Positions 5,269 through 35,535 of a DNA stretch of 51,482 nucleotides are shown here, piece by piece. Within the stretch, counting starts at the first letter, position 1. Every line of letters starts with the position of its first letter. Position numbers and translations under genes: made by a program. Under the pieces are notes generated by a model that worked only from the letters and a program-made list of their open reading frames with translations, was not told the origin of the DNA and made no database searches. The stretch comes from Verrucomicrobiales bacterium (GTDB taxonomy: Bacteria; Verrucomicrobiota; Verrucomicrobiia; Verrucomicrobiales; V1-33): contig JAGNEJ010000027.1 in the NCBI GenBank assembly GCA_018003315.1, positions 1 through 51,482 on the forward strand, read 5' to 3'.

Positions 5269-7341
5269 TTAATCCACGCAGAGCAGCCCGTTCCAGTTCA
5301 GCAGCACCCGGCAGACGTGAACGAGATCGCGGGCATCGAGCAGGCGGAGCAGGATGCCCGCTTCCTCCGGAGTCGGCGGCCGCTGCACCGCCAGGCGCAC
5401 GGCTTCCTCGATCTGCCGGACGCCGTTTTCGCCGGCGGCGTGCCGCACCCGTTCCGCAAAGGCAGCGGCGCATTCCTCGGTGAAGGTGCTGTTGAGCAGC
5501 GTGAGGGCCTGAGGCGCCACGGTCGAAACAGCCCGCCTCCCGCAGGTGGCAAAATTCTCCGGCAGGTCGAACGTCTCCAGAAATGGCTGCCGCACGCTGC
5601 GCTTCTGAATGGTGTAGATGCTGCGCACCTGCAGCTTGTCAGGCGGTGAGGGATACCACCCCTTGGTTTTTTCGGCGTTGTCGTCCGCAAAGGCCGGATT
5701 TGCATGCAGCACTTCCGCAGGCAACGGCGGCCACGCCGCAGGCCCGCCGTCGCTGGGTTCCAGCTTTCCGCTCACCGCCAGCAGGGCATCCCGCAGCATT
5801 TCCGCCGTGAGCCGCCGTGGATTCGCCCGCCAAAGCAGGGTGTTGGCGGCATCCGCCGCCTCGCCTGCGGCACGCCGGGCATCGCCCGGATAGGCTGACT
5901 GGCGGTAGGTGGCGGAGGTCACCAGTCGGCGGATGGTTTTTTTCCACGACCATCCGTTCCTGACAAAATCCTGCGCCAGCCAGTCCAGCAGCGCGGGGTG
6001 CGAGGGGCGCGCACCGCTGAAACCAAAGTCATTGGGCGTGGCAACGATGCCCGTGCCAAAAACCCCCTGCCAGAGGCGGTTGGTGACGACGCGGCTTGTC
6101 AGGGGATTCTCCGGTGCGGTGATCCATGCGGCCAGGGCCGTGCGCCGGCCGCTGCTGCAGGGCAATTTCACCACAGCGGTGTCGTTCGGGTCGAACACGG
6201 CAGGGACTCCCGGGTGGACGACCTGTTTCGGACGGGCTGGGTCGCCCGCTTCAAGCACCCGGGTTTCGGGCGCCTCCGCTCCATTCTCGCTCCCGCAAAA
6301 GCCCGGCACAAAACGCCTGCGCTGGCGGTTGAGTTCCTGCACCTCGCGCTCCAGTTGTTCCTTCCGCGCCTTGTCAGTGCCAACGTTTTCCAGTGCCTGT
6401 TGCAGCGGTTTCAGCTTCCGGTCGAGTTCCGCATTGCAGGACTCGATTTCCCGGCGTGCCGGCGCGAGATCCAGTGGCACGGCCTCGTCATGGCGCACAT
6501 TGGCAAAAAAGGCGCGCATCCGATAGTGGTCGGTCTGCAGCAGGGGCTCGGTTTTGTGGTCGTGGCAGCGGCAGCAGTTCAGCGTCAGCCCGAGGAAGGC
6601 TGCCGCTGTGGTTTCCGTCACGTCTGCCTGCACCGCCGCCAGGTTTTTCGGCTGTTCGTTGAAGAGTTTCGACGAATGGTCATACGGCCCGAGACGGAGA
6701 TACCCGGTGGCCACCAGCGAATCCTGTTCCGACTCATTTTGCGGCGGACCCGTGAGCATTTCATCCCCGGCCAACTGCTCCCGCACGAATCGGTCGAAGG
6801 GCTTGTCCGCTGCAAGGGAACGGATGACATAGTCGCGGAACCGCCAGGCCTCCGGACGGAATTCGTCCCAGTCATAGCCGTTGCTGTCACTGTAGCGCAC
6901 CACATCCAGCCAGAGCCGCGCCCAATGCTCGGCAAAAGCGCGGCTGTTCAGCAGCCGGTCCACCAGCCTGCCATAAGCATCGGGATCCGCATCGCGGAGA
7001 AATTGGTCCAACGCATCCGGCGAGGGCGGCAACCCGGTGAGGTCATGCCAGAGCCGCCGCCCGAGGACGCGGCGATCCGCTTCCGGGGCCGGCTGCAGGC
7101 CCGCGGCTTCCAAGCCATGCAGGATGAAGGCATCGACCGGATTGCGCACCCAGGCCTGATTGCGCGGCTGCGGGGGAACCGCCTGCGGCACGGGCCGCAG
7201 CGACCAGAGATCCAGCCGCTGTCCCTTGAATGCCGTCACTACTGGATTGCGGGCGTCGGTCAGGGCGTCGCCCACCGGCAACTCCGCCGCTCCGGCCGTC
7301 ACGCTGGCGGCTGCAAGCAGGATGCAGCAGATCCCTTTCAT
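5269..7341 (-). CDS. DUF1549/DUF1553 (PSCyt2/PSD1) secreted protein
   Basis: 690 residues from the ATG at 7339-7341, chosen because it gives a signal peptide (MKGICCILLAAASVTAGA); 33 upstream in-frame codons look non-coding. The N-terminal half matches DUF1549 (VDAFILHGLEAAGL, then LTGLPPSPDAL and the YSDSNGYDWDEFRPEAWRFR region), with a CxxCH motif at Cys256-Cys259-His260 followed by DHK, typical of the family and suggestive of c-type haem. The C-terminal half is DUF1553 (NPLTSRVVTNRLWQ, then TYRQSAYPGDARR). These proteins are abundant in Planctomycetes and Verrucomicrobia and often pair with a DUF1501 gene; function is poorly known, with proposed roles in sulfated-polysaccharide use. There is no separate N-terminal cytochrome (PSCyt1) domain and no DUF1501 neighbour here. 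It is divergent from the corA-like gene with about 145 bp between starts. Confidence 0.88.
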   Translation of the reverse strand: MKGICCILLAAASVTAGAAELPVGDALTDARNPVVTAFKGQRLDLWSLRPVPQAVPPQPRNQAWVRNPVDAFILHGLEAAGLQPAPEADRRVLGRRLWHDLTGLPPSPDALDQFLRDADPDAYGRLVDRLLNSRAFAEHWARLWLDVVRYSDSNGYDWDEFRPEAWRFRDYVIRSLAADKPFDRFVREQLAGDEMLTGPPQNESEQDSLVATGYLRLGPYDHSSKLFNEQPKNLAAVQADVTETTAAAFLGLTLNCCRCHDHKTEPLLQTDHYRMRAFFANVRHDEAVPLDLAPARREIESCNAELDRKLKPLQQALENVGTDKARKEQLEREVQELNRQRRRFVPGFCGSENGAEAPETRVLEAGDPARPKQVVHPGVPAVFDPNDTAVVKLPCSSGRRTALAAWITAPENPLTSRVVTNRLWQGVFGTGIVATPNDFGFSGARPSHPALLDWLAQDFVRNGWSWKKTIRRLVTSATYRQSAYPGDARRAAGEAADAANTLLWRANPRRLTAEMLRDALLAVSGKLEPSDGGPAAWPPLPAEVLHANPAFADDNAEKTKGWYPSPPDKLQVRSIYTIQKRSVRQPFLETFDLPENFATCGRRAVSTVAPQALTLLNSTFTEECAAAFAERVRHAAGENGVRQIEEAVRLAVQRPPTPEEAGILLRLLDARDLVHVCRVLLNWNGLLCVD

Positions 7342-7486
7342 GCGCCCACCAGTGCTCGCGGCAGACACCCCGCTCAAGCACAAATCTGCGGAGCCGCTTC
7401 CTTTCCGCAATGTGGCTGGCACCGCCTGCCCCAGGGACATTTCACTTGAGCACCTCCGCCCGCAGGGCTACGGACGCCCGCAAACC

Positions 7487-22733: not shown

Positions 22734-22789
22734 CCAGCGTGGCGGGGTTTGCTGATTCCGCCACATTTTCATCCCTCCCCGTCCTCCCC

Positions 22790-25700
22790 ATGCACATCCA
22801 CACCCGTTCCGCTTTCCTGGCGGCACTGCTGGCAGCGCCATTTTCCGCTGCGGCCAGTCCGGTCATCAACGAGATTTTTTTTCGTTCCGCCACCGTTCCG
22901 GAAAACACCGCTCACGAGTGGCTGGAACTCTACAATCCGGATCCCGTTTCGGTGGATGTCAGCGGCTGGCGTCTGAGCAAAGGGGTGGACTTCACCATTC
23001 CTCCGGCGACGACCATCCCGGTGGGCGGCCATCTGGTGATTGCCGCGAATGTGGCAACATTCCAGGCGGAACATCCGGGATTCGCCGGTTCGTTAGTCGG
23101 AGGATGGACCGGACAGCTTTCTAACAACGGAGAGCAGGTCCGGCTCGAGGACACGTCTGGAACTCCCGTGCATGAGGTGAATTACGCCAGCGAAGGAGAC
23201 TGGGCGGTGCGCATCCGTGGGCCGCTATCTTTTTCACATCGCGGCTGGGCCTGGGAATGTCCGGCGGATGGCGGGGGACGTTCCCTGGAACTCATCGGCT
23301 TGTCATTCGGAACCGGAACGGCTCTGGACCACGGCCTGGCCTGGAAATCAAGCACTGCCTCCGGGGGAACTCCGGGTGCCGTCAACAGCGTGGCCGCCGC
23401 CAATCCTGAGCAGGCCATGGCGGTCAACGTGCGCCACAAGCCCGATGTGCCGCACTCCACGGACACGATTCAAATTTATGCCGAATTGCCGCCCGGCGGC
23501 ACCACCAACCGCGCTTGCTACTGGCGCGTGGACGGTGCCGTTTCCTTCAATGTCGCCATTTTTTCACCGACTAGTTCCACTTCCGGCCAGGGATTCTGGA
23601 AAGGCGTGGCCACCATTCCGGCTCAGCCCAATGGCACGGTCATCGAGTATTACGTGGACCCTGACAATGCCAATGCCGCCTCCGTCAACGACAGTTGGCC
23701 GCGCATGGCCCGGACCTCGAATCCCGGCGTGCAGCCGGAAACCTACGGCCACGCCTGCAATGCGCTGATCCAGGTGGACGATTCCTTCAATCCCGCGCTG
23801 GATTTCACCGTCGCTGGCAACCAGCCGCTCCTCCGGCTGGTGATGAAGGATGCCGAACGGGCGGAACTCGCGCAGATTGGCAGCACCAGCGGCCAAGAGG
23901 ATTCCGAAGCGGAAATGAATGCCACTTTTGTTTCGCACGACGGCGAAGGCACCACCGTGCGCTACGTCTGCGGCGTGCGCAACCGGGGGCAGGCCTCCGC
24001 CCTCGGACCACCGAACAATTTCCATGTGGCCTTCGTCAACGGAGACGACTGGAACGGACGGCGCAGCCTGACGCTGAACTGCCAGTATGGTTACGGTCAG
24101 GTGCTGGGAAACGTGCTCTTTGCCCTCGCGGGAGTGGCTCCGCAGGACGCCGTGGCCGTGCAGGTGCGCGTCAATGGCGCGGACCTCGCCGAGTCCGGCA
24201 GCCGCATGTTTGGACGTTATGCCCTGCTGGAAGGCCGCGGCTCCGACTGGGCAAAGAAACACTATCCACTGGACTCCGACGGAAATTTATACCGTCTGGA
24301 CGACCACGCCTCAGGCGCCGTCGGCACGCCTCCCGGCAATCTCGGCAGCGGTGAATTCCAATACGAGGGTGCGGACCCCGCCGCCTACAGCGACACCTTC
24401 ATCAAGGAAACCAACAAGGACGCCAATGACTACAGCGACCTGGTCAATTTTACCCGCGTGGTGAGCGCTCCGGCCACCGGCGGGAGTGCGGAGCAGCCGG
24501 CCATCAGTGACGCGGCGTATCCTGCGGCGGTGGCGGCAGTGCTGGACGTGGACCAGTTCTACCGGTTCATCGCGACGGATGCACTGATCGGCAACCAGGA
24601 GGGAGGCCTGCAAAGCGGACGGGCCGACGACACCAGCATTTACCGTGGCATGATCGATCCCCGCTTCCGGTTTGTCCCGCATGACATGGATGATGTGTTC
24701 GACATCGGCAGTGGCGTGGGCGATCCGGTGACGCGGTCCATTTTCAGTTATGACGAATACGTGCAGCAAGGGAACACCGGCGTGGTGGGCCTGCGGCGGC
24801 TGTTTAACCATCCGGCTCTGCTGCCGAAATACTACGCGGCCCTGCTGGGCGGTCTGGACACCTGGTTTACCCACGCCACGCTGGATCCCATCATCGACCG
24901 CATCATGCAGGGCTGGGTGCCTGCGGGGTCCGGAGCGGCCTCTCCGGCGCGGAACATCGCCGCCATCAAGGCATTCATTGACGCCCGCCGCAGCAACGTG
25001 CTGGCGCAGATTCAGCAGAATTTCTCCCTAACCACCACGGGCACCACTGCGGACAGCCCGGAGGGCTACAAGGTTAGCACCACCGGAGCCGCGACCTTTG
25101 CCGGCACGTTTGCCGTGGCCAGGACCTACAGCATCACCGTCAACGGCATGGCGGCGCAGGCCTTTTACCGCACGGTCGGCGCCGATGCCGCAGGCACCTG
25201 GAAACTGGTGCTGCCCGCGGGCGGCGGCGGGTTGCTCACACCGGGCCTGAACCACGTGGTGGTGCGTTTCTGGAGCGGGCTCAACGGGACCGGCAGCGTG
25301 CTGCAGGAGTTTCTATCCAAAATCGTGTGGAATGGCGTTGCGCCGGATTCCCTGACCCTGACCGTGCCGCAGACCTACGTGCCCGGCGTGCCGGTCCTGG
25401 TGCGGGCAGACCTGAAGACCGGCAACGGCCAGCTCAACCGCGAGGCGTGGAACACCACGGTCAATCTCACCGCCACCAACGGCGTTGCCCTCTCACCCGC
25501 CACCATCACCCTGGCAAACGGCATGGGCAGCGCACTCGTCACCCTGGGCACCAGCTCCGGCGGCGGCACCGTGAACTTCCTGACCTATGGCACCGGCGGC
25601 ACCGGCAGCACGTCCAGCAATTCCGGCACCCCGGGCAGCACTTGGAAATACCGTGGAGATTTCACCTCCGCTACTCTGGCTGCCTTCATCTCCAGCAGCG

Positions 25701-28700
25701 GAACTACCTGGAAAAACGAGGGATTCGACGACTCCGCCTGGCCCAGCATCGTGACCCAGACCGGCTACGGTGACGGTGATGAAAACCGGGCGTTCGCCCG
25801 GGTGGACTATGGCACCGGCAGCGGCACCCAGAGCAGTCCGTCCTATCTTTTCCGCAACACCTTCACCATCGCTGACCTCAGCCAGTTGGCCAGTGTGACC
25901 GGGCAGGTGAAATATGACGACGCCGCGGCGGTGTATGTCAACGGCACCGAAGTCCTGCGCACCGCCACGCTGCCCGCGGGCGCAGCCCTCACATCCTATG
26001 CCAATTCGTCCCCTGCGCAGGAAAATGCCACCACGGCCATCACCGTTCCGCTGGGGCTGCTCCACAATGGCGTCAATACCATCGCCGTGGAGATTCACCA
26101 GGCATCCGCCACCAGCACCGACGTCACCTTCGACCTGCGACTCCAGGGCAATCTGTTTTCGGTCAACGCCGATCCCGGGAATTTCACCCTGACGGCAACC
26201 GCAGGCCCCTCCGTCGCCACCAGGGCCATGACCAGCCTTGGCACGAATCCGCCCGGCACCACGGCCAGCGGCACCCTGCCCGCAGGCACCACCAATTGGA
26301 GCGGCGTGGTGCGCGTCACCGGCGACCTCACCGTTCCCGCCGGAGCCACATTGGAAATTGCCCCGGGCACCCATGTGCTGATGGCCGGCACGTCTGGAGC
26401 AGGCGACACCGGCGGCGCGGACCTCATCTGCACCGGCGGCGGCATCATCAACGCGCTGGGCACCGCGGCACAGCCCATCAGCATCACGGCCAGCGAAGCC
26501 TCCACGCGCTGGGGAGAGGTCAATGTGGGCGGCTCCACGACGCTCTGGCAGTACTGCCTCGTCTCCAGGGCCGCCCATTCGCCCGGCGGCGGCCACACCG
26601 GCACCGGTCCGGCTTTTCGGTTAGGCAACGGGGCGGTCTGGACGTTCGAGGACGGAGTCATTTCCGATCTCTCCGGCAAGATCCTTACCAATTCCGGCAG
26701 CACCACCCTGGTGATGCGCCGCTCCCAGTTCGCTCGCTGCGTCATGGGGCCGGAAATCGACGGCAGCGCCCTCACCGTCGAGGACAGCAACTTTTCCGAC
26801 ATGCTCCCGATCTACCGCGAATCCGGCGGCCCGGACGATGAGGACAACCTTTACATCCACGACAGCGGCGGACGTCCGGTGAACCTGCGCCGCAGTGTGT
26901 TCTACAACTGCGGGGACGATGCCGTGGACTGTCTCTCCGGCTCCCTGAGCATTGAGGACTGCATCATCCGCAATGCCTTCGACAAGGGCCTCAGCCTGCT
27001 GAACAACAACGTCACCGTGCGCCGCACCCGGATTATTGACTGCGACATCTGCGTCAGCACCAAGTGCCAGGTGGGCGGCACCGAAAGCACGCCGTTTCTC
27101 AACTCCTTCGAAAACTGCACCATCGTCGCGGAAAACCACCCGACCAACACCAGCGACGGCACCTTTCACAGCGTCGGCGTGCACACCCGCAACAAATACG
27201 GCACCACCACGATGAACATCACCGTGGACCTGCACAACTGCATTGTCAGTGCGGAGGAGCCCGTCGCCAATGACTACGGCGGAGGCACTTTCCCGCTCAA
27301 CGTCCAGAACTACACCTGCTTTTTCGATCAGGGAGGCAGCAACCCGACAAACCCGCTGCCATCCAGCGGGACCGGCAACCTGACCGCGAACCCGCAGTTC
27401 GTGAATGCCGGCGCGAAAAACTTCAACCTCGCCGCCGCCAGCCCGTGCCTTGATGCCGGCGATCCAGCTCCGGCCTACAATGATCCCGACGGTTCACGCA
27501 ATGACATGGGAGCGCTGCCCGCCGGAAGCGGACCGCCCACCCAGGGCACGCTGGTGAATGCGAACATCACCGCCCCCGGCGAAACGCGCTGGACGCTTGC
27601 AGGTTCACCCTATCATGTGACCGCCAGCATCAGCGTCGCACCGGGTTCTACCCTGCGCATCGATCCTGGCGTCAATGTGCAGTGCGACCAGAATGTGCGC
27701 ATCACGGTCAACGGGCGCATCCTGGCCCAGGGCACGGCGGCGCAGCGCATTGTTTTCTCCCACGTTCCCGGCACCAGCCTCGCCACCGACGTGGACCCCA
27801 TCAAGCTGGGCACCCAGACCGGCGCTCCGAAATGGGGCGGGCTGCGCATCGTGGACAGCATGGCGCAGGAAAACATCGTGAGTTTTGCCGATTTCATCAA
27901 TGCCCAGGGGACTTCACCCGGCAATTCGGAAAACTACGGCAGCCTCGGCTTCATCCGCTCCTGGGGCTGGGCCGACCACTGCACGTTTGCCGGCACCCAC
28001 CTGCGCATGCTTTACGGACGGAACAGCAAACTGACATTCACCTACAACACGATGCCGGACATGTTCCTTTTCGATCCGGCGCTGAACCGCATCGAGGAGC
28101 CGACCACCGATTTCATCCCCGCCGCCGACAACAGCATGGAGCCGATGAAAGTCGAGTATCCGACCACCGACGCGGAAGTTTCCGGAAATGCGAACTATCC
28201 AAATGGCATGCCGCTCAACGGCCACTGGCGCTGTTATTTCAACCAGTTCCACGGCAACCGCGGCCACCAGGACGTTTTCGACTGTGACAGCGGACGCTGG
28301 GCACCGCGCGATCCGGTGACCAACCACCAGACCAACGGACAGTTCGTCATCGACTGCCGCTACAATCATTTTCACGGCCTCGCAGGAGATGAACACATGG
28401 ACCTCGGCGGCGATGCCTACATCGCCAGCAATGTGTTCAAAAATGCCCGCAAGGACTACTGGACCAACGACACCGGCTACTCCAACGCCATCAGCTCCGG
28501 CGACAAGGGCAGCGGCACCACCATCATGGTCGCGCGGAACATCTGCTATGACCTCGACCACGTCATCAACTGCAAGGCAAACACCGCCACCATCTTCGAG
28601 CACAACACGGTGGCGAACCTCCATGCCGACTTCCAGTTCCAGGGCCAGAGCGTGACGCAGAACGTCGTTTGCGCGCCGGTAAACTTCTTCATCCCCGGCG

Positions 28701-31159
28701 ACGGCGTGAACCCCAGCGTGGGTGATGGTGCCTTCATGGGCTTCAACATCGTCAGCAACGTGCCGCACCTCTTCAGCGGACCCGACACCAACGCCCAGGG
28801 CCACGGCATCACCACTAAAATCGAGTTTTTTCACAACCTGCTCGACGCGATCGCCGATCCGGAGATCGGGCCGAACCATCCCGGCGGTTTCTTCAGCGGA
28901 GCCTACGGCCCTAACCAGTCCGGCGCTCCCGGTTTCGTCAATCCTGCCGCCGAGGATTACGGGCTGCGCACCGACTCGCTGGCCCGCGCCACCGCACCCG
29001 GAGGCCTGAACTACGGGGCTGGCATTGCGGAATGGGCCTACCTCCTCGGCGGCCCCAGCGGCACGGTGGCGGAAACGGATGCAGCCTTCACGGTAGGCGG
29101 ACCGGGGGTGGTCGCCTACAAATGGCGGATCGACGGAGGCACGTGGAGTGCGCCCGTTCAGATCGGCTTTGGCGGCCAGCTCAACCGCAGCGGAGCCAAC
29201 CCGCGCCAGGCCACACTCACGCTCACCGGACTGGGCGCTGGTCCGCACACCCTGGAGGTGCTCGGCCAGGACATGGCCGGCAACTGGCAGGGCAACGATC
29301 CCGCCCGCACCTACGACGGCGCCGCCCAAGCCGCCCCCACCACTCGCACCTGGACCGTGGACACCGCCCTGCCCTTGGTGTTCCTCAGCGAAGTCCACGG
29401 CGATACCGCTCCCGGCACTCCCGCACTGCCGGTGCAGTGGGTGGAACTCGTCAACCGCAGCACCACCACGGTGGACCTCACCGGCTGGAGCCTCAGTGAC
29501 GACCCGCTCACTCCCGGCGAGCAAGCGCTCAGCGGACCCATTGCTCCCGGTGCCGCCGTGATTGCTTCCCTGGCGGCCTTCCAGATCGACAACGACGGCG
29601 ATGCCATCTATCTTTTCGACGCCGCCAATGCCCAGCGCGACAGCGTGGTCTTCGGCCCGCTGCCCGACGGGCATTCGCTCGGCCGCGCAGGAGCCCCCGC
29701 TGCCTGGCAGCTTTGCGATCCCACCTTCGGCACCCTTCCGAACACCCCTGCCCGCCTGTCGGATTCCTCACAGGTCGTCATCAACGAATGGCTCGCCGCC
29801 AGCGACGTTCGCTACCGGGACGACTGGGTGGAACTCGCCAATCCCGCGCCCTATCCCGCCAGCCTCACCGGCATGATCCTGACAGATGCCCGCTTTGGCA
29901 CCGGCGTTGCGTTTCCACCGCTCAGCTTCATTGGAGGAAATGGGTACGTGAAACTCATCGCCGACGGCAAATCCGAGGATGGTCCCGGCCACACTTCCTT
30001 CAAGATCGACGGCATCACCGAGGAACTGCTGCTCTTTGCCGCCGGCGGCGCCCAGCAGGACAGCGTCCGCGTCTTTCCCCAGGTGCAGGATGTCAGTCAG
30101 GGCCGCGTTGCCACCGGGGGTGTTGGCGGGCTGGATTTCTTCCCGCTCGCCACCGGGGGAGCCGCCAACGTCACCGGCGGCCCCGGCTATGCCAATGCCC
30201 TGGCCTTGCTGGACGGGCTGCGGATCACCGAAATCATGTACAATCCCCCCGGCGGCAGCAGCTATGAATTCATCGAATTGACGAACATCGGCAGCGCGAC
30301 CCTGGACCTGAGCGGAGTCGTCTTTTTCGACGGAATCGATTTCACCTTTCCACCGGGCACCCTTCTCCCAGGCGGTGGGGAAATCGTATTGGTCAAAAAT
30401 CTGGCCGCCTTTGAGGAACGCTACGGGGCCGGACTCAATGTCGGCGGAGTTTACACAGGATCGCTCGACAACAGCGGCGAGCTGTTGGGCCTGCGCCTGC
30501 CTTATCCGTGGGACGCCGGCATCCTCTGGTTCCGCTACGAAGCCACCTGGCACGACACCAATGCCAGCGGCTACAGCCTCACGCTCCTGAACAGCGCCAC
30601 CCCCAGCGCAGATTTCGACGAACCGGAAACGTGGACCGCATCCACCCAGATCTTCGGCACGCCCGACAGTTGGGTGAATTCGCATCCGGACGGTCTGGCC
30701 GCGTGGCTGGCCGCCCACGCGCTCACTGTCGGCGATCTTCCGCTCGACAGCGACTTCGATGGCCTCGCCAACACCCTCGAATACGCCCTCAACACCGACC
30801 CGCATTCCGGCAGATCACCGCAAGGTGCGGACCGTCTGCCCGCCGCAGGTACGAGTGGCGACGGGTTTGCCACCATCACCTTCGACCTGCCTGCCAGTGC
30901 GCTGGCTGGTGGGCACGGGTGCCCCGGAGTCAGTTACGAAATCCGCACCGGAACGGACCTTGCGGTCTGGTCCACCGTGGCGAAAAAATCGCCGGCCACC
31001 GCCGCGTGGACCGACTCTGTCGGCGGTGCCCTGCCTGCAGGTGCGGTTACCGTCACCCCAATCCCAGGCGGTCTGGTTCGCATCACCGTCAAGGATTCCG
31101 TCCCCGTCGCCAGTTCCCAGCGCCGCTTCCTCCGCCTGCAGGTGACCATTTCACCCTGA
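22790..31159 (+). CDS. Giant secreted LTD/CotH/parallel-beta-helix protein
   Basis: 2789 residues from ATG 22790, chosen because MHIHTRSAFLAALLAAPFSAAA is a signal peptide. Order: lamin-tail domain 1 (about 22-135), CotH-like kinase region (about 345-690) with RNRGQAS, NLYRLDDH and FVPHDMDDVFD near 628-638, a jelly-roll-like domain (about 960-1120; GYGDGDENR, LHNGVNTIAVEIHQ), right-handed beta-helix segments (about 1180-1555 and 1603-2020; Asn-rich rungs), and lamin-tail domains 2 to 4 (about 2194, 2327 and 2476 onward). The C-terminus has a DSDFDGLAN Ca loop and ends RRFLRLQVTISP. It shares LTD plus CotH with the partial protein at the left edge. LTD/CotH fusions are known in Verrucomicrobia and Planctomycetes; beta-helices commonly bind or cleave polysaccharides. 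Kinase or lyase activity is unproven. Confidence 0.87.
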   Translation: MHIHTRSAFLAALLAAPFSAAASPVINEIFFRSATVPENTAHEWLELYNPDPVSVDVSGWRLSKGVDFTIPPATTIPVGGHLVIAANVATFQAEHPGFAGSLVGGWTGQLSNNGEQVRLEDTSGTPVHEVNYASEGDWAVRIRGPLSFSHRGWAWECPADGGGRSLELIGLSFGTGTALDHGLAWKSSTASGGTPGAVNSVAAANPEQAMAVNVRHKPDVPHSTDTIQIYAELPPGGTTNRACYWRVDGAVSFNVAIFSPTSSTSGQGFWKGVATIPAQPNGTVIEYYVDPDNANAASVNDSWPRMARTSNPGVQPETYGHACNALIQVDDSFNPALDFTVAGNQPLLRLVMKDAERAELAQIGSTSGQEDSEAEMNATFVSHDGEGTTVRYVCGVRNRGQASALGPPNNFHVAFVNGDDWNGRRSLTLNCQYGYGQVLGNVLFALAGVAPQDAVAVQVRVNGADLAESGSRMFGRYALLEGRGSDWAKKHYPLDSDGNLYRLDDHASGAVGTPPGNLGSGEFQYEGADPAAYSDTFIKETNKDANDYSDLVNFTRVVSAPATGGSAEQPAISDAAYPAAVAAVLDVDQFYRFIATDALIGNQEGGLQSGRADDTSIYRGMIDPRFRFVPHDMDDVFDIGSGVGDPVTRSIFSYDEYVQQGNTGVVGLRRLFNHPALLPKYYAALLGGLDTWFTHATLDPIIDRIMQGWVPAGSGAASPARNIAAIKAFIDARRSNVLAQIQQNFSLTTTGTTADSPEGYKVSTTGAATFAGTFAVARTYSITVNGMAAQAFYRTVGADAAGTWKLVLPAGGGGLLTPGLNHVVVRFWSGLNGTGSVLQEFLSKIVWNGVAPDSLTLTVPQTYVPGVPVLVRADLKTGNGQLNREAWNTTVNLTATNGVALSPATITLANGMGSALVTLGTSSGGGTVNFLTYGTGGTGSTSSNSGTPGSTWKYRGDFTSATLAAFISSSGTTWKNEGFDDSAWPSIVTQTGYGDGDENRAFARVDYGTGSGTQSSPSYLFRNTFTIADLSQLASVTGQVKYDDAAAVYVNGTEVLRTATLPAGAALTSYANSSPAQENATTAITVPLGLLHNGVNTIAVEIHQASATSTDVTFDLRLQGNLFSVNADPGNFTLTATAGPSVATRAMTSLGTNPPGTTASGTLPAGTTNWSGVVRVTGDLTVPAGATLEIAPGTHVLMAGTSGAGDTGGADLICTGGGIINALGTAAQPISITASEASTRWGEVNVGGSTTLWQYCLVSRAAHSPGGGHTGTGPAFRLGNGAVWTFEDGVISDLSGKILTNSGSTTLVMRRSQFARCVMGPEIDGSALTVEDSNFSDMLPIYRESGGPDDEDNLYIHDSGGRPVNLRRSVFYNCGDDAVDCLSGSLSIEDCIIRNAFDKGLSLLNNNVTVRRTRIIDCDICVSTKCQVGGTESTPFLNSFENCTIVAENHPTNTSDGTFHSVGVHTRNKYGTTTMNITVDLHNCIVSAEEPVANDYGGGTFPLNVQNYTCFFDQGGSNPTNPLPSSGTGNLTANPQFVNAGAKNFNLAAASPCLDAGDPAPAYNDPDGSRNDMGALPAGSGPPTQGTLVNANITAPGETRWTLAGSPYHVTASISVAPGSTLRIDPGVNVQCDQNVRITVNGRILAQGTAAQRIVFSHVPGTSLATDVDPIKLGTQTGAPKWGGLRIVDSMAQENIVSFADFINAQGTSPGNSENYGSLGFIRSWGWADHCTFAGTHLRMLYGRNSKLTFTYNTMPDMFLFDPALNRIEEPTTDFIPAADNSMEPMKVEYPTTDAEVSGNANYPNGMPLNGHWRCYFNQFHGNRGHQDVFDCDSGRWAPRDPVTNHQTNGQFVIDCRYNHFHGLAGDEHMDLGGDAYIASNVFKNARKDYWTNDTGYSNAISSGDKGSGTTIMVARNICYDLDHVINCKANTATIFEHNTVANLHADFQFQGQSVTQNVVCAPVNFFIPGDGVNPSVGDGAFMGFNIVSNVPHLFSGPDTNAQGHGITTKIEFFHNLLDAIADPEIGPNHPGGFFSGAYGPNQSGAPGFVNPAAEDYGLRTDSLARATAPGGLNYGAGIAEWAYLLGGPSGTVAETDAAFTVGGPGVVAYKWRIDGGTWSAPVQIGFGGQLNRSGANPRQATLTLTGLGAGPHTLEVLGQDMAGNWQGNDPARTYDGAAQAAPTTRTWTVDTALPLVFLSEVHGDTAPGTPALPVQWVELVNRSTTTVDLTGWSLSDDPLTPGEQALSGPIAPGAAVIASLAAFQIDNDGDAIYLFDAANAQRDSVVFGPLPDGHSLGRAGAPAAWQLCDPTFGTLPNTPARLSDSSQVVINEWLAASDVRYRDDWVELANPAPYPASLTGMILTDARFGTGVAFPPLSFIGGNGYVKLIADGKSEDGPGHTSFKIDGITEELLLFAAGGAQQDSVRVFPQVQDVSQGRVATGGVGGLDFFPLATGGAANVTGGPGYANALALLDGLRITEIMYNPPGGSSYEFIELTNIGSATLDLSGVVFFDGIDFTFPPGTLLPGGGEIVLVKNLAAFEERYGAGLNVGGVYTGSLDNSGELLGLRLPYPWDAGILWFRYEATWHDTNASGYSLTLLNSATPSADFDEPETWTASTQIFGTPDSWVNSHPDGLAAWLAAHALTVGDLPLDSDFDGLANTLEYALNTDPHSGRSPQGADRLPAAGTSGDGFATITFDLPASALAGGHGCPGVSYEIRTGTDLAVWSTVAKKSPATAAWTDSVGGALPAGAVTVTPIPGGLVRITVKDSVPVASSQRRFLRLQVTISP

Positions 31160-31372: not shown

Positions 31373-32398
31373 ATGCAGTCTGATTTCACCGAAGACCAAT
31401 TGATCGAACAAACCCGCCGCCGCCTGGTCGGCTGGGATGCGGCGGAGGTCCATCTGCAAAAGATTGAAAAGGGAGGGAGTGACCGCTGTTATTACCGCGT
31501 GAGCGCCGGGGGAAGGTTCCGTGGACCCGCCACCGTCATTCTCATGGTTTACACCGACCGCCGTCCGGACAATCTGAGTTTTTTTGCGGCAACGGAAGTG
31601 CTGGCCCTGCGCAAGGTTCGGACGCCGCGGGTCTATTTTCATGACCCGAGCCTGCGGCTGGGCTGGATGGAGGACCTGGGCCGACTGGACCTGTGGGAAT
31701 ACCGCAACGCGGCACCGGAAGAGCGGCTTCCACTCTACCGCGACGTGCTCGGCCAGGCGGCACAAATTCATTCCCTGCGCCTCCCTGACATTCCCGATCA
31801 GTTGCGGCACCGGCTGCAGCCGCCTTTTGATGAAAGCCTCTACCGGTGGGAGCAGGATTATTTCTTCGACCACTTCGCCAACAATTTTTCCGCTCTGCCG
31901 CGGGAAGAGATCGACCGCATCCGCCAGCTTCCCGAGTTTGGCGACCTCGCTGCCGCCCTGGCCCAAATGCCGCGCTTCATGGTGCACCGCGACTTTCAAT
32001 CCCAGAATGTGCTGGTGCGCGAGGGCAAGACCTGGCTCATCGACTACCAGGGGCTGCGCCCGGGGCGGCCGGAATATGATCTGGCCTCCCTGCTGTATGA
32101 CCCCTACGTCAGCCTCACCCCGGATGAACGCGATGACCTGCTGGCGCACTACCTGGAAATCCGCCCGGGCGACGACCAGTGGGACACCAATCCCGACATC
32201 CTTGCCGCCTGCTGCAGTCAGCGGCTCATGCAGGCACTGGGAGCCTATGGCAATCTGGGACTCAATCAGGACAAGCCGACGTTCCTCGCCCACATCCCAC
32301 GCGCGGTGGAAAACCTGCTCTTCGTTCTCGACCGCCACGGCGTCCTCCCCTCCCTGCGCAGTCTGCTGCAGATCCGGGAGCGGAATGCCGCTGCCTGA
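31373..32398 (+). CDS. APH-fold phosphotransferase (COG3178, AmgK-like)
   Basis: 341 residues. It has the aminoglycoside-phosphotransferase/choline-kinase fold: an N-terminal lobe with EKGGSDRCYYRV, the catalytic loop HRDFQSQNVLV (His205, catalytic Asp207) and the metal-binding LIDYQGLRPG (Asp224), followed by EYDLASLLYDPY. This combination fits COG3178, whose characterised members include AmgK, the anomeric MurNAc/GlcNAc kinase of peptidoglycan recycling. The usual AmgK partner MurU (nucleotidyltransferase) is not adjacent, so the substrate is uncertain. It is cytoplasmic and probably transcribed alone; the nuoM promoter region follows. Confidence 0.75.
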   Translation: MQSDFTEDQLIEQTRRRLVGWDAAEVHLQKIEKGGSDRCYYRVSAGGRFRGPATVILMVYTDRRPDNLSFFAATEVLALRKVRTPRVYFHDPSLRLGWMEDLGRLDLWEYRNAAPEERLPLYRDVLGQAAQIHSLRLPDIPDQLRHRLQPPFDESLYRWEQDYFFDHFANNFSALPREEIDRIRQLPEFGDLAAALAQMPRFMVHRDFQSQNVLVREGKTWLIDYQGLRPGRPEYDLASLLYDPYVSLTPDERDDLLAHYLEIRPGDDQWDTNPDILAACCSQRLMQALGAYGNLGLNQDKPTFLAHIPRAVENLLFVLDRHGVLPSLRSLLQIRERNAAA

Positions 32399-32461
32399 TG
32401 GGGCAGGATTGTCCGCTGGCAGCGATGGTTGCACCCAAATCCGGGAACCACGGTGCTGCGC

Positions 32462-32479
32462 TTGTGAAAAATTTCACAA
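32462..32479 (+). promoter_or_regulatory. Rex-like operator upstream of nuoMN
   Basis: TTGTGAAAAATTTCACAA is an inverted repeat with perfect 8-bp arms around AA. It fits the Rex consensus TTGTGAA-W4-TTCACAA at every defined position. Rex is an NADH/NAD+-sensing repressor of respiratory genes in several phyla. It also fits TGTGA-N6-TCACA, so a CRP/FNR-family regulator is an alternative. It sits 7 bp upstream of a likely -35. Confidence 0.6.
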
Positions 32480-32486
32480 ATTGGGC

Positions 32487-32516
32487 TTGCCGGTGATTTT
32501 CCTTGGCATCAATAAT
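32487..32516 (+). promoter_or_regulatory. Putative promoter of nuoM-nuoN
   Basis: TTGCCG (32487-32492) and AATAAT (32511-32516) with an 18-bp spacer, immediately downstream of the Rex-like palindrome. Confidence 0.4.
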
Positions 32517-32557
32517 GACAGCCAGCCGTCGGGCCGCCAGCGGCGCAGGCATCTCCA

Positions 32558-34063
32558 TTGATTTCAACCCATTTCCGCGTGAGTCTGCTCGATCTCCTGA
32601 TTTTTCTGCCTGTTCTGGCCGCCATTGGCATGGCGTTTGGGGTGCCGGCCCGGCTGGCGGCGCTGGGTGCTGCCGGGGCGAATTTGCTGCTCGGAATCGG
32701 TCTGGGCGTCGCCTACGATGTGGCCAAGGGAGGCTATCAATTTACTGCCAGCCGTGCGGTGCTGGACAACCCTGCCATTTCTTATGCGGTGGGCCTGGAC
32801 GGTCTGAGTCTGGTGCTGGTGCTGCTGACGGTGCTGGTGACCTTTTGTGCGGTGTGGATTCCGGCACCCTCCGGTGTCCATGAAAAGCTCTATTACGCCT
32901 CCAGTCTGCTCATCTCCGCGGGGGCTTTGGGGGCGTTTGTCTGCACCGACGTTCTCTTCCTCTACGCTTTCCACGAACTGGCGCTCATTCCCACCTTCCT
33001 CATGATCGGCCTCTACGGCAGCGGCGGGCGCGAACGGCGCATGGAGGCAGCCTGGAAAATCACGATTTATCTGGGCCTCGGCAGCCTGATTCTGCTGGCG
33101 GGACTCGCCTGGCTGGTGCTGAAGGGAAGCCCGGCAGGGACGATGACGTTCGACCTCCAGGTGCTCCGGGAGTCGGCGAAGGCGATCGATGCCTCCACGC
33201 AGGAATGGATCTTCGTCACGCTGCTCATCGGTTTCGGCGTGCTCATTTCGCTGTTTCCCTTTCACTCCTGGGCGCCTCCCGCCTATGCGGCAGCACCAAC
33301 GGCGGTGACCATGCTGCACGCTGGCGTCCTGAAAAAATTCGGCCTCTACGGCCTGCTGCGCATCGCGGTGCCGCTGCTGCCGCTGGGGGCGTCCGCCCCA
33401 TGGGTGAACCAGCTCATGCTTTGGCTGCTGCTGGGGAACATCCTCATCATCGGCTTGGTGACCATCGCTCAGAAGGAACTCGATCTGGTGCTGGGCAACT
33501 CCAGCGTCATGCACATGGGGTATGTTTTCCTCGGCATTGCCAGCGGCAATGTCATCGGATATGGCGGCGCCCTGCTGCTGATGTTTGCCCACGGGGTTTC
33601 CATCGCGCTGCTCTTTGCCCTGTCCGCCATGATCCGGGAGCGCACGGGGACACTCGAACTGGCCAGGCTCGGCGGTCTGGCAAAAAAGGTGCCCTTCTTG
33701 GGCCTGGTGTTCGGCATGGCCACCATGGCGTCGATCGGTCTGCCGGGATTCGCGAACTTTTCCTCGGAAATCATGGTATTCTTCGGCGGCTTTCACGGGA
33801 GCGGAGGGAAAATGGGCGCGCTGCAGGTGGCGACGATTCTGGCACTGTGGGGCGTGGTCATTTCTGCGGTTTACATGCTGCGGGCTTACCGCCGGGTATT
33901 CAAGGGGCCGCAGGCTGGTGATCTCACCATTCTGGACATCCCGGTCAATCTGGCACAGCGCTTGCCGGCGGTGCTGCTGCTCGCTGCACTGCTTATTGTC
34001 GGTTTCTTCCCCGACCTCTTGCTCCATTTCGCCAATCCGGTTCTCAAGCTGATTGCCGGTTAA
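32558..34063 (+). CDS. nuoM: NADH-quinone oxidoreductase subunit M
   Basis: 501 residues from TTG 32558, which has AGG 8 nt upstream; GTG 32579 (VSLLDLLIFLPVL) is an equally reasonable start giving 494 residues. It is an antiporter-like membrane subunit of complex I with about 14 helices. Family motifs: AFHELALIPTFLMIGLYG (key Glu of TM5), FPFHSWAPPAYAAAPTAVTMLHAGVLKKFGLYGLLR (key Lys and His of the proton channel) and GLPGFANFSSE. Length matches the family (E. coli 509). It forms part of the proton-pumping arm with NuoL and NuoN. Only nuoN follows, 20 bp downstream; other nuo genes are not in the window. Probably controlled by the Rex-like palindrome upstream. Confidence 0.93.
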   Translation: MISTHFRVSLLDLLIFLPVLAAIGMAFGVPARLAALGAAGANLLLGIGLGVAYDVAKGGYQFTASRAVLDNPAISYAVGLDGLSLVLVLLTVLVTFCAVWIPAPSGVHEKLYYASSLLISAGALGAFVCTDVLFLYAFHELALIPTFLMIGLYGSGGRERRMEAAWKITIYLGLGSLILLAGLAWLVLKGSPAGTMTFDLQVLRESAKAIDASTQEWIFVTLLIGFGVLISLFPFHSWAPPAYAAAPTAVTMLHAGVLKKFGLYGLLRIAVPLLPLGASAPWVNQLMLWLLLGNILIIGLVTIAQKELDLVLGNSSVMHMGYVFLGIASGNVIGYGGALLLMFAHGVSIALLFALSAMIRERTGTLELARLGGLAKKVPFLGLVFGMATMASIGLPGFANFSSEIMVFFGGFHGSGGKMGALQVATILALWGVVISAVYMLRAYRRVFKGPQAGDLTILDIPVNLAQRLPAVLLLAALLIVGFFPDLLLHFANPVLKLIAG

Positions 34064-34083: not shown

Positions 34084-35535
34084 ATGCCCGCCTACGTCTT
34101 GGAAATTGCCGTTCTGGCCCTCGGGTTGATCCTCCTTTTGTGGGAGGCATTTCTCGCGCCGGACAAGCGACGCTGGATCGGCTATGCGGCCATTGGCGGA
34201 CTGGCGCTGGTGTTTGTCCTGACATTTTTTGCGGAAATGCACCCTGCCGAGGCGGGAGGATTCTGGTCGTATTACACTGCCGACAAGCTGGCCCTGTTTT
34301 ATAAACGTCTCGCGCTGCTCTGCACCGGTGTGGTTTTGGTCCTGGGCCTGGATTTCCTGCCGGTTCTGGAAAAATACTCCGCCCGGGTGGGCGGGGGGGC
34401 GGCCATCGGTGAATTTTTCTCCCTGCCCGTATTCATCTGCACGGGCCTCATGTGGATGGCTTCCGCTGTCGATCTCACCAGCATTTTTGTCTCTCTGGAG
34501 CTGGTCACCATCGCCTTCTATGTCCTCGTCGCCTACATGCGCCGCAATGGCGGCTCCCTGGAAGCAGGGGCCAAATATCTGATTCTGGGCGCGCTTTCGA
34601 CCGGGTTTTTCGTTTATGGCTTCGCCTGGCTTTTTGGGGTCACCGGCCAGACGAACCTTGCCGCCATCGGGCATGCGCTGGCGACCACTTCGCACCACAG
34701 CGCGGCGCTGTTTGCCTTTGCCCTCGTGCTGGTTGGCATCGCCTTCAAGGTGGCCGCCGTTCCGCTTCAGTTCTGGGTGCCCGACGTGTATCAGGGAGCG
34801 CCGACTCCGGTGACGGCCTTTTTGTCCGTGGGATCGAAGGCCGCCGGCTTCATCGTCGCCTTCCGTTTGCTGCAGCCATTCCTGGCCTCGGACGCGCTGA
34901 GCGGTCCGGCTCTGTCCATTCTCGTGGCCGTGGCCGGTGCCACCCTGCTGGTCGGAAACCTCGCGGCCATTCCCCAGACGAATTTCAAACGGCTGCTCGC
35001 CTATTCCAGCATCTCCCATGCGGGTTTCCTCCTGCTGGCACTGGCTTCGAAGGCTCCTGTCGGCGGCCTGCGTCCAGAACAGGTCGTTTCCTTCTACCTG
35101 GCTGCCTATCTGTTCATGACGTTGCTCTGCTTTGCCGTCCTGGCCATCATCAACCGGTGGAAGGCAAGTGACGATCTGACCGCTTTCGACGGTTTGGGCC
35201 AGCGCAGCCCGTTTCTGGCATTCGCCCTGCTCATCGGCAGCGTCAGCTTGGCCGGGGTCCCTCTCACCGCTGGTTTTCTTGGCAAATTCTTCGTCTTCAC
35301 CTTGGCTATCAACAGCGGCTATTTCTGGCCCACGGTAGTGGCGATCCTCGGCGCTGCCGCTGGATTTTACTACTACCTCAAAGTCGTGCGCAGCATGTAT
35401 CTGAGCAAACCCGCGGCGTCCGACCCGGCATTGCCAACGCCGCTCTGTCCGCTGACGCGGATCACCATCATCGTCCTGATCGCTGCAACGCTCCTCTTTG
35501 GCGTCTGGCCGCAGCCGATTCTCTCCCTGCTGTGA
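34084..35535 (+). CDS. nuoN: NADH-quinone oxidoreductase subunit N
   Basis: 483 residues (E. coli 485), hydrophobic throughout with about 14 helices. Diagnostic segments: SLELVTIAFYVLVAY, GAKYLILGALSTGFFVYGFAWLFG, PLQFWVPDVYQGAPTPVTAFLSVGSKAAGF with the channel Lys, RLLAYSSISHAGFLLL and GVPLTAGFLGKFFVF. It is the NuoN antiporter-like subunit in the inner-membrane arm of complex I, translocating protons during NADH-to-quinone electron transfer. It is separated from nuoM by 20 bp and clearly co-transcribed with it. It ends convergently with maf. Confidence 0.93.
   Translation: MPAYVLEIAVLALGLILLLWEAFLAPDKRRWIGYAAIGGLALVFVLTFFAEMHPAEAGGFWSYYTADKLALFYKRLALLCTGVVLVLGLDFLPVLEKYSARVGGGAAIGEFFSLPVFICTGLMWMASAVDLTSIFVSLELVTIAFYVLVAYMRRNGGSLEAGAKYLILGALSTGFFVYGFAWLFGVTGQTNLAAIGHALATTSHHSAALFAFALVLVGIAFKVAAVPLQFWVPDVYQGAPTPVTAFLSVGSKAAGFIVAFRLLQPFLASDALSGPALSILVAVAGATLLVGNLAAIPQTNFKRLLAYSSISHAGFLLLALASKAPVGGLRPEQVVSFYLAAYLFMTLLCFAVLAIINRWKASDDLTAFDGLGQRSPFLAFALLIGSVSLAGVPLTAGFLGKFFVFTLAINSGYFWPTVVAILGAAAGFYYYLKVVRSMYLSKPAASDPALPTPLCPLTRITIIVLIAATLLFGVWPQPILSLL

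Follow-up and report, generated by a model that had tools for sequence, protein, structure and literature searches.

The window, that is, the whole stretch of 51,482 nucleotides that was analysed, contains a two-gene unit for the complex I subunits NuoM and NuoN. A perfect 18-bp palindrome, TTGTGAAAAATTTCACAA, lies in front of this unit and fits the form TTGTGAA-W4-TTCACAA, with AAAT as W4. The features of the locus are as follows.

31373..32398, + strand, upstream neighbour, APH-type phosphotransferase (PF01636, E 2.2e-18)
32460..32461, + strand, GC directly ahead of the palindrome and within the extended consensus of the operator (66/83 sites have the G, 63/83 the C)
32462..32479, no strand assigned, predicted Rex operator with the core TTGTGAAA-WW-TTTCACAA (pattern match and alignment of 83 sites)
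32487..32492, + strand, -35-like box TTGCCG, 7 bp past the operator (64/66 nuo/atp/ndh sites are followed by a TTG that begins at base 5-10)
32511..32516, + strand, putative -10-like box AATAAT, with an 18-bp spacer from the -35-like box (AT-rich bump at roughly this distance in the 83-site alignment)
32579..34063, + strand, nuoM, with the listed open frame running from TTG 32558 (PF00361, E 7.6e-54; TIGR01972, 360.5 bits, cutoff 263.8)
34084..35535, + strand, nuoN (PF00361, E 1.7e-65; TIGR01770, 363.4 bits, cutoff 332.6)

We infer that the in-frame GTG at 32579 is a likelier start of nuoM than the TTG at 32558. The gene upstream of nuoM is of the APH type and does not belong to complex I, so nuoMN forms a unit separate from the other nuo genes. 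The palindrome was the sole match to the Rex form at up to three mismatches in the window. Shuffled sequences averaged 1.25 such loose matches, so the loose count in the window was uninformative, while the exact match was informative. The first-pass annotation had described an 18-bp palindrome of the Rex form, 7 bp ahead of the promoter of two complex I subunits. All of this was borne out: the match is perfect, the palindrome ends at 32479 with TTGCCG starting at 32487, and both NuoM and NuoN scored over the cutoffs of their models.

Rex and its predicted sites in the genome

A search of the whole genome (5,085,353 bases) found 13 copies of the exact form TTGTGAA-N4-TTCACAA, none with one mismatch and seven with two. 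The reversed control pattern gave no match at up to two mismatches in the whole genome. Given the dinucleotide composition estimated on the window and on the loci fetched from this genome (62% G+C), about 0.014 exact sites were expected genome-wide. We read the genes at every site, and all 13 sites preceded respiratory genes. Eight complex I units carried a site (nuoBC, nuoD, nuoE, nuoF, nuoG, nuoH, nuoIJKL and nuoMN), as did four ATP synthase units (atpBEFH, atpA, atpG and atpDC), in which the identities of atpD and atpG were backed by NCBIfam models. The remaining site preceded an actA-like multihaem cytochrome gene at a contig end. This name is based on Pfam cytochrome c7, on a QrcA match under cutoff and on a likeness to alternative complex III. 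The genes nuoB to nuoN and atpA to atpH were thus fully accounted for in 12 scattered units, and every located unit carried an operator, the units having been located via their sites with one copy per gene considered. For nuoA, a motif scan that covered the window and the fetched loci returned nothing. The first-pass annotation had proposed looking for the palindrome before other nuo and atp genes, where it was present, and also before cyd, ldh and adh, none of which lay downstream of any of the 13 exact sites.

These counts bear on the reading of the palindrome as a product of chance or as a structural element, for example a terminator. In favour of this reading, the palindrome starts 64 bp past the end of the APH-type gene, and short palindromes rich in A and T occur often. 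However, the excess of exact copies over expectation, all of them before one functional gene class, and the recurrence of the site in four named relatives, equally far from nuoM, leave this reading hardly credible.

At the nuoD site, an 874-residue open frame on the plus strand (L021:4886-7510, contig C63) diverges from nuoD and matched no Pfam family. Its listed start is 10 bp from the nuoD operator, which it might share.

The first-pass annotation had made a Rex operator dependent on a Rex homologue, and the genome carries one full-length Rex. This protein gave the sole PF06971 match (E 4.4e-17, over cutoff, at C105:8942-9085), and its NAD-binding Rossmann domain matched PF02629 with an E value of 3e-17. 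Nine NCBIfam Rex models matched it, six of them over cutoff, with 234.2 bits for NF003995 (cutoff 126). Residues 85-284 of the open frame aligned over the full length with the solved Rex 2vt2 (E 5.2e-42). The same full-length alignment was obtained across eight distinct sequences of solved Rex proteins (2vt2, 3keo, 3ikv, 3ikt, 1xcb and others; E 5.2e-42 to 2.5e-37), with which the protein shares LRKDLAHFGQFGTRGLGY in the N-terminal domain and GTGNLG in the Rossmann domain. By these sequence criteria, its identification as the Rex transcriptional repressor is well supported. Autoregulation of this rex was rejected, with no site at up to three mismatches in the 9 kb around the gene. A site-like stretch with four mismatches, 14 bp before the probable ATG, was not counted as a site.

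To read the targets in relatives, we fetched all exact sites from 12 genomes of the class, own included (G000, G001, G002, G003, G019, G029, G033, G291, G294, G339, G345 and G364), which gave 88 sites. Nearly all of them (85/88) preceded genes for complex I, NDH-2-type enzymes, ATP synthase, actA-like, NrfD-type, cytochrome oxidase or cytochrome c proteins, or polyprenyl synthase. The other three stood at genes without a clear respiratory role, with a sigma-70-type factor downstream (L092), in a glycosyltransferase region (L141, at 4377) and with a ribosomal S12 gene on the other side (L158). The polyprenyl synthase gene carried the same operator in five relatives (L095, L122, L133, L135 and L143). 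This enzyme perhaps makes the quinone tail, and quinone supply may then be tied to the Rex regulon.

Joint distribution of rex and the site

The site and rex occurred together among the relatives. In a set of 57 genomes, own included, 44 carried the motif, with at least two sites each, and 41 carried rex. The 13 motif-less genomes all lacked rex, and all of them belonged to genus g5. Sites without a rex match were seen in three genomes (G004, G007 and G016) with completeness of 77, 86 and 83%, and all 35 site-bearing genomes at 90% completeness or above carried rex. A second set covered the phylum, with 383 genomes at least 90% complete (52 in the order, own included, 92 elsewhere in the class and 239 outside it). 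Its 221 rex-positive genomes were listed in full and 142 of the 162 negatives were not, so some negatives were read from absence among the positives. Among the 52 order genomes, the 27 with sites were identical to the 27 with rex. The union of the 57-genome set and the order part of the phylum set comprised 88 genomes, of which 60 had both sites and rex, 25 had neither, three had sites only and none had rex only. Since 23 of the 25 genomes with neither belong to one genus, the pattern implies few independent losses of rex and site.

Genus g24, which adds a further case independent of g5, contains both states. Three rex-bearing genomes (G280, G291 and G396) had five, six and four exact sites, whereas two with no rex match (G253 and G411) had none. 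In G253, one site with a single mismatch was left, before nuoD. G411 had nothing below two mismatches, and before its nuoD a stretch with four mismatches was found at about the expected position. No site upstream of atpB was found in the fetched 1.5 kb of either genome. In these two genomes, the pattern looks like site decay following the loss of rex.

Elsewhere in the class, strong rex matches were found in four of the 92 genomes, three of which (G294, G339 and G345) had four, two and two sites, while G327 had none that was exact. Five weak rex matches (E 1e-4 to 9.4e-4) came without a site, and three rex-less genomes had one site each. These single sites, placed by frame inside gcvP (G118) and an Abi_2 gene (G167) and lying in an unassigned open frame in G242, were taken as chance. 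Outside the class, 185 of the 239 genomes had a rex match and seven had one exact site each, six of them with rex. With exact sites in only 6/185 rex genomes there, the majority of distant Rex proteins must recognize different or less strict sites. In three of these distant genomes (G105, G204 and G281), the sole exact site was upstream of rex itself, at a distance of 22, 43 and about 76 bp, respectively. In G128 and G099, the single site lay 400-500 bp before NuoE-like genes, and in G077 it lay beside AraC-type and desaturase genes; the seventh genome was G090.

Two of the distant loci have a further feature. In G281, a single open frame on the minus strand (L182:332-1474) comprises a complete Rex (PF06971 and PF02629) and a NuoE-type 2Fe-2S thioredoxin-like domain (PF01257), with the exact site about 76 bp upstream. 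It is possibly a fusion of the sensor with an NADH-oxidising subunit. In G204 (L099), rex is followed on the same strand by a NuoE-like gene, with the sole exact site of the genome before rex, an unfused version of the pair.

The joint distribution helps to decide which protein binds the palindrome. CRP/FNR-family sites have the form TGTGA-N6-TCACA, which the palindrome letters also fit. If a CRP/FNR protein were the binder, the respiration genes would answer to cyclic nucleotides, oxygen or NO. The genome has six cNMP-binding proteins, two of which (L031 and L032) also have a Crp-type helix-turn-helix domain. ArcR is a CRP/FNR-type protein. In S. aureus, the motif as described for ArcR is reported to be a Rex target, so one kind of site may be mistaken for the other (PMC2883068). 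However, the conserved letters in the relatives reach TTGTGAAA and TTTCACAA, past the CRP pentamer. L031 and L032 were far under the cutoff of each CRP/FNR-type NCBIfam model that they matched. Among the 57 genomes, HTH_Crp_2 was over cutoff in 30 and present at E <= 0.001 in 47; this was the only family searched, so another Crp-type family could be missed. It was not found in ten genomes, nine of which carry 3-9 sites; thus 9 of the 44 site-bearing genomes lack it, in contrast to the presence of rex in every site-bearing genome at 90% completeness or above. Many of the weak HTH_Crp_2 matches probably come from helix-turn-helix proteins of other kinds, and counting the positives therefore overestimates the true Crp proteins. 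The first-pass annotation was right that the same bases fit a CRP/FNR site. A CRP/FNR protein as the binder is very unlikely, because rex tracks the motif and HTH_Crp_2 does not.

A different regulator of respiration might bind the palindrome if its gene had been gained and lost along with rex. Co-occurrence is not binding, and at nuo and atp genes the operator lies upstream of a -35-like box, a position from which an activator could work too. Against such a regulator, the motif is identical to the published Rex consensus (PMC5355995, PMC2883068), and the lone site in three distant genomes stands before rex itself, as is reported for S. avermitilis (PMC5355995). We regard this alternative as improbable.

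Predicted Rex control of respiration

We consider it highly probable that the palindrome is the operator of Rex, the NADH/NAD+-sensing repressor, on nuoMN, on the remaining scattered units of complex I and ATP synthase and on the actA-like gene, where binding, the NADH switch and repression are expected by analogy with other bacteria. At low NADH, Rex dimers, either NAD+-bound or free, would occupy the site beside the -35 box and keep nuoMN repressed. At rising NADH levels, Rex would bind NADH and come off the DNA. Transcription of nuoMN would then start, along with that of the other scattered units of complex I and ATP synthase and of the alternative-complex-III-like cytochrome gene. Repression was taken as the default because S. 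avermitilis Rex represses nuo and atp, and because turning on NADH oxidation at high NADH makes sense. Activation might operate instead. The Rex-like operator of the first-pass annotation thus gained support from 13 sites, one rex and their co-occurrence in relatives, with binding and the NADH response carried over from other bacteria.

S. aureus Rex binds TTGTGAAW4TTCACAA, with binding enhanced by NAD+ and prevented by NADH (PMC2883068). Its consensus is identical to the palindrome here, while its targets are genes of anaerobic metabolism, for example fermentation, and not the respiratory chain and ATP synthase as in this genome (PMC2883068). The same Rex motif was used in a 2026 Parageobacillus paper (PMC13077300). 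S. avermitilis Rex represses nuoA1-N1, atpIBEFHAGDC, ndh2 and other aerobic respiration genes, and NADH lowers its DNA binding (PMC5355995). The S. avermitilis genome was searched with the consensus TTGTGAANNNNTTCACAA, which is the same as here (PMC5355995). Its sites are imperfect, with one mismatch in two genome motifs, two in 10 and three in 24, whereas those described here are perfect and many (PMC5355995). Its nuo and atp genes are described as single operons (PMC5355995), in contrast to the operon fragments with a site each in our genome. Targets in S. avermitilis include the cyd and rex-hem operons (PMC5355995), but no cyd or heme target was found among the 88 sites.

The motif and the nuo, atp and ndh2 targets were therefore known from Rex elsewhere. 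New are the predicted Rex regulon in this group, the presence of one identical operator on the pieces of broken-up operons, and the position of that operator immediately ahead of -35. If the prediction holds, the aerobic Rex regulon extends to a Verrucomicrobia group. A literature search for Rex in Verrucomicrobia, Verrucomicrobiota and Akkermansia, by title and abstract start and with most subscription papers outside its scope, found no Rex study. Searches on split operons with regulatory sites found none, and those on scattered respiratory genes of Verrucomicrobia gave Aquifex only. Rex was treated comparatively by Ravcheev et al. (2012).

Promoter geometry and operon breakage

We aligned 83 of the 88 sites in two classes, 66 of nuo/atp/ndh and 17 of cytochrome/quinone type, which were drawn after seeing the data. 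The core TTGTGAAA-WW-TTTCACAA was usually preceded by GC, and had A at position 8 in 83/83 sites and T at position 11 in 78/83. A TTG box started at base 5-10 past the site in 64/66 nuo/atp/ndh sites, against 2/17 of the cytochrome/quinone type. In 40 of those 64 sites, the best -10 match followed the TTG box at 16-17 bp, a count with seven spacings allowed and without a shuffle control. By strict hexamer count, a conserved -10 box was weak, with 4/66 at the best offset, and shuffles reached 5 at some offset. If the boxes are real, the operator at nuo and atp units is centred near -51. The cytochrome/quinone-type sites may then overlap the core promoter and themselves hold the -35. The mapped operators of S. 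avermitilis rex, nuoA1 and atpI encompass -35 (PMC5355995), whereas here most nuo and atp units have the operator ahead of the -35-like box, with about 7 bp between the two. This makes simple occlusion less obvious here. The nuoG and nuoM promoters both carry GGTGATTTT after their -35-like boxes.

The relatives show how the operator is placed when operons break. We examined 49 named NuoM loci, of which 47 had Verrucomicrobial names; the other two (L083 and L084) were from other phyla, one a Chloroflexi and one a Zipacnadia record, and one locus (L079) is truncated. In four of the 49 loci (L038, L039, L041 and L074), nuoMN stood without nuoL, and in all four an exact site lay 99 bp before the NuoM match. 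In 42 loci, nuoL adjoined nuoM, and in none of these was there a site between them. One of the 42 (L046) has a unit beginning at nuoJ, with the exact site directly before nuoJ. Another (L075) is an exception, in which nuoLMN apparently heads the unit and the fetched stretch has no exact site. Within the own genus, in G001, nuoHIJKL and atpAG are joined, with one site each, while in our genome (G000) nuoH, nuoIJKL, atpA and atpG are apart, with a site each.

The atpG and atpD promoters of our genome (L017 and L020; contigs C2 and C62) were alike in 28/40 bases after the site and in 43/80 around it. The latter value exceeded the largest of 2000 shuffles (37), and among 78 pairs only this one did so. 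From this sequence similarity, one promoter of the pair was likely copied from the other.

Both complex I and ATP synthase require numerous subunits in set amounts, and the coordination of these is usually explained by shared operons. With an operator at each fragment, a single sensor could control genes that lie in one operon elsewhere. We tentatively propose, as a possibility that we hold with less than even confidence, that the operator replaces the operon. Each break in complex I or ATP synthase operons would supply the new head with a perfect Rex operator at a constant spacing from a -35 box of its own. In some cases at least, this would come about by copying of an operator-promoter cassette, as at atpG/atpD, and the operators would be lost when rex is lost. 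Rex may then act from upstream of -35, blocking the polymerase alpha subunit or acting by contact, rather than covering the promoter core. Among the relatives, nuo and atp operons are broken up to differing degrees and the new heads carry operators, which makes it testable whether co-regulation by one repressor can replace an operon.

Two other genes of the window were also noted. On the plus strand, an open frame of 2806 residues (22739-31159) has four stretches of lamin tail domain and a CotH kinase domain. On the minus strand, positions 5269-7440 code for a PSCyt2/PSD1 (DUF1549/DUF1553) protein.
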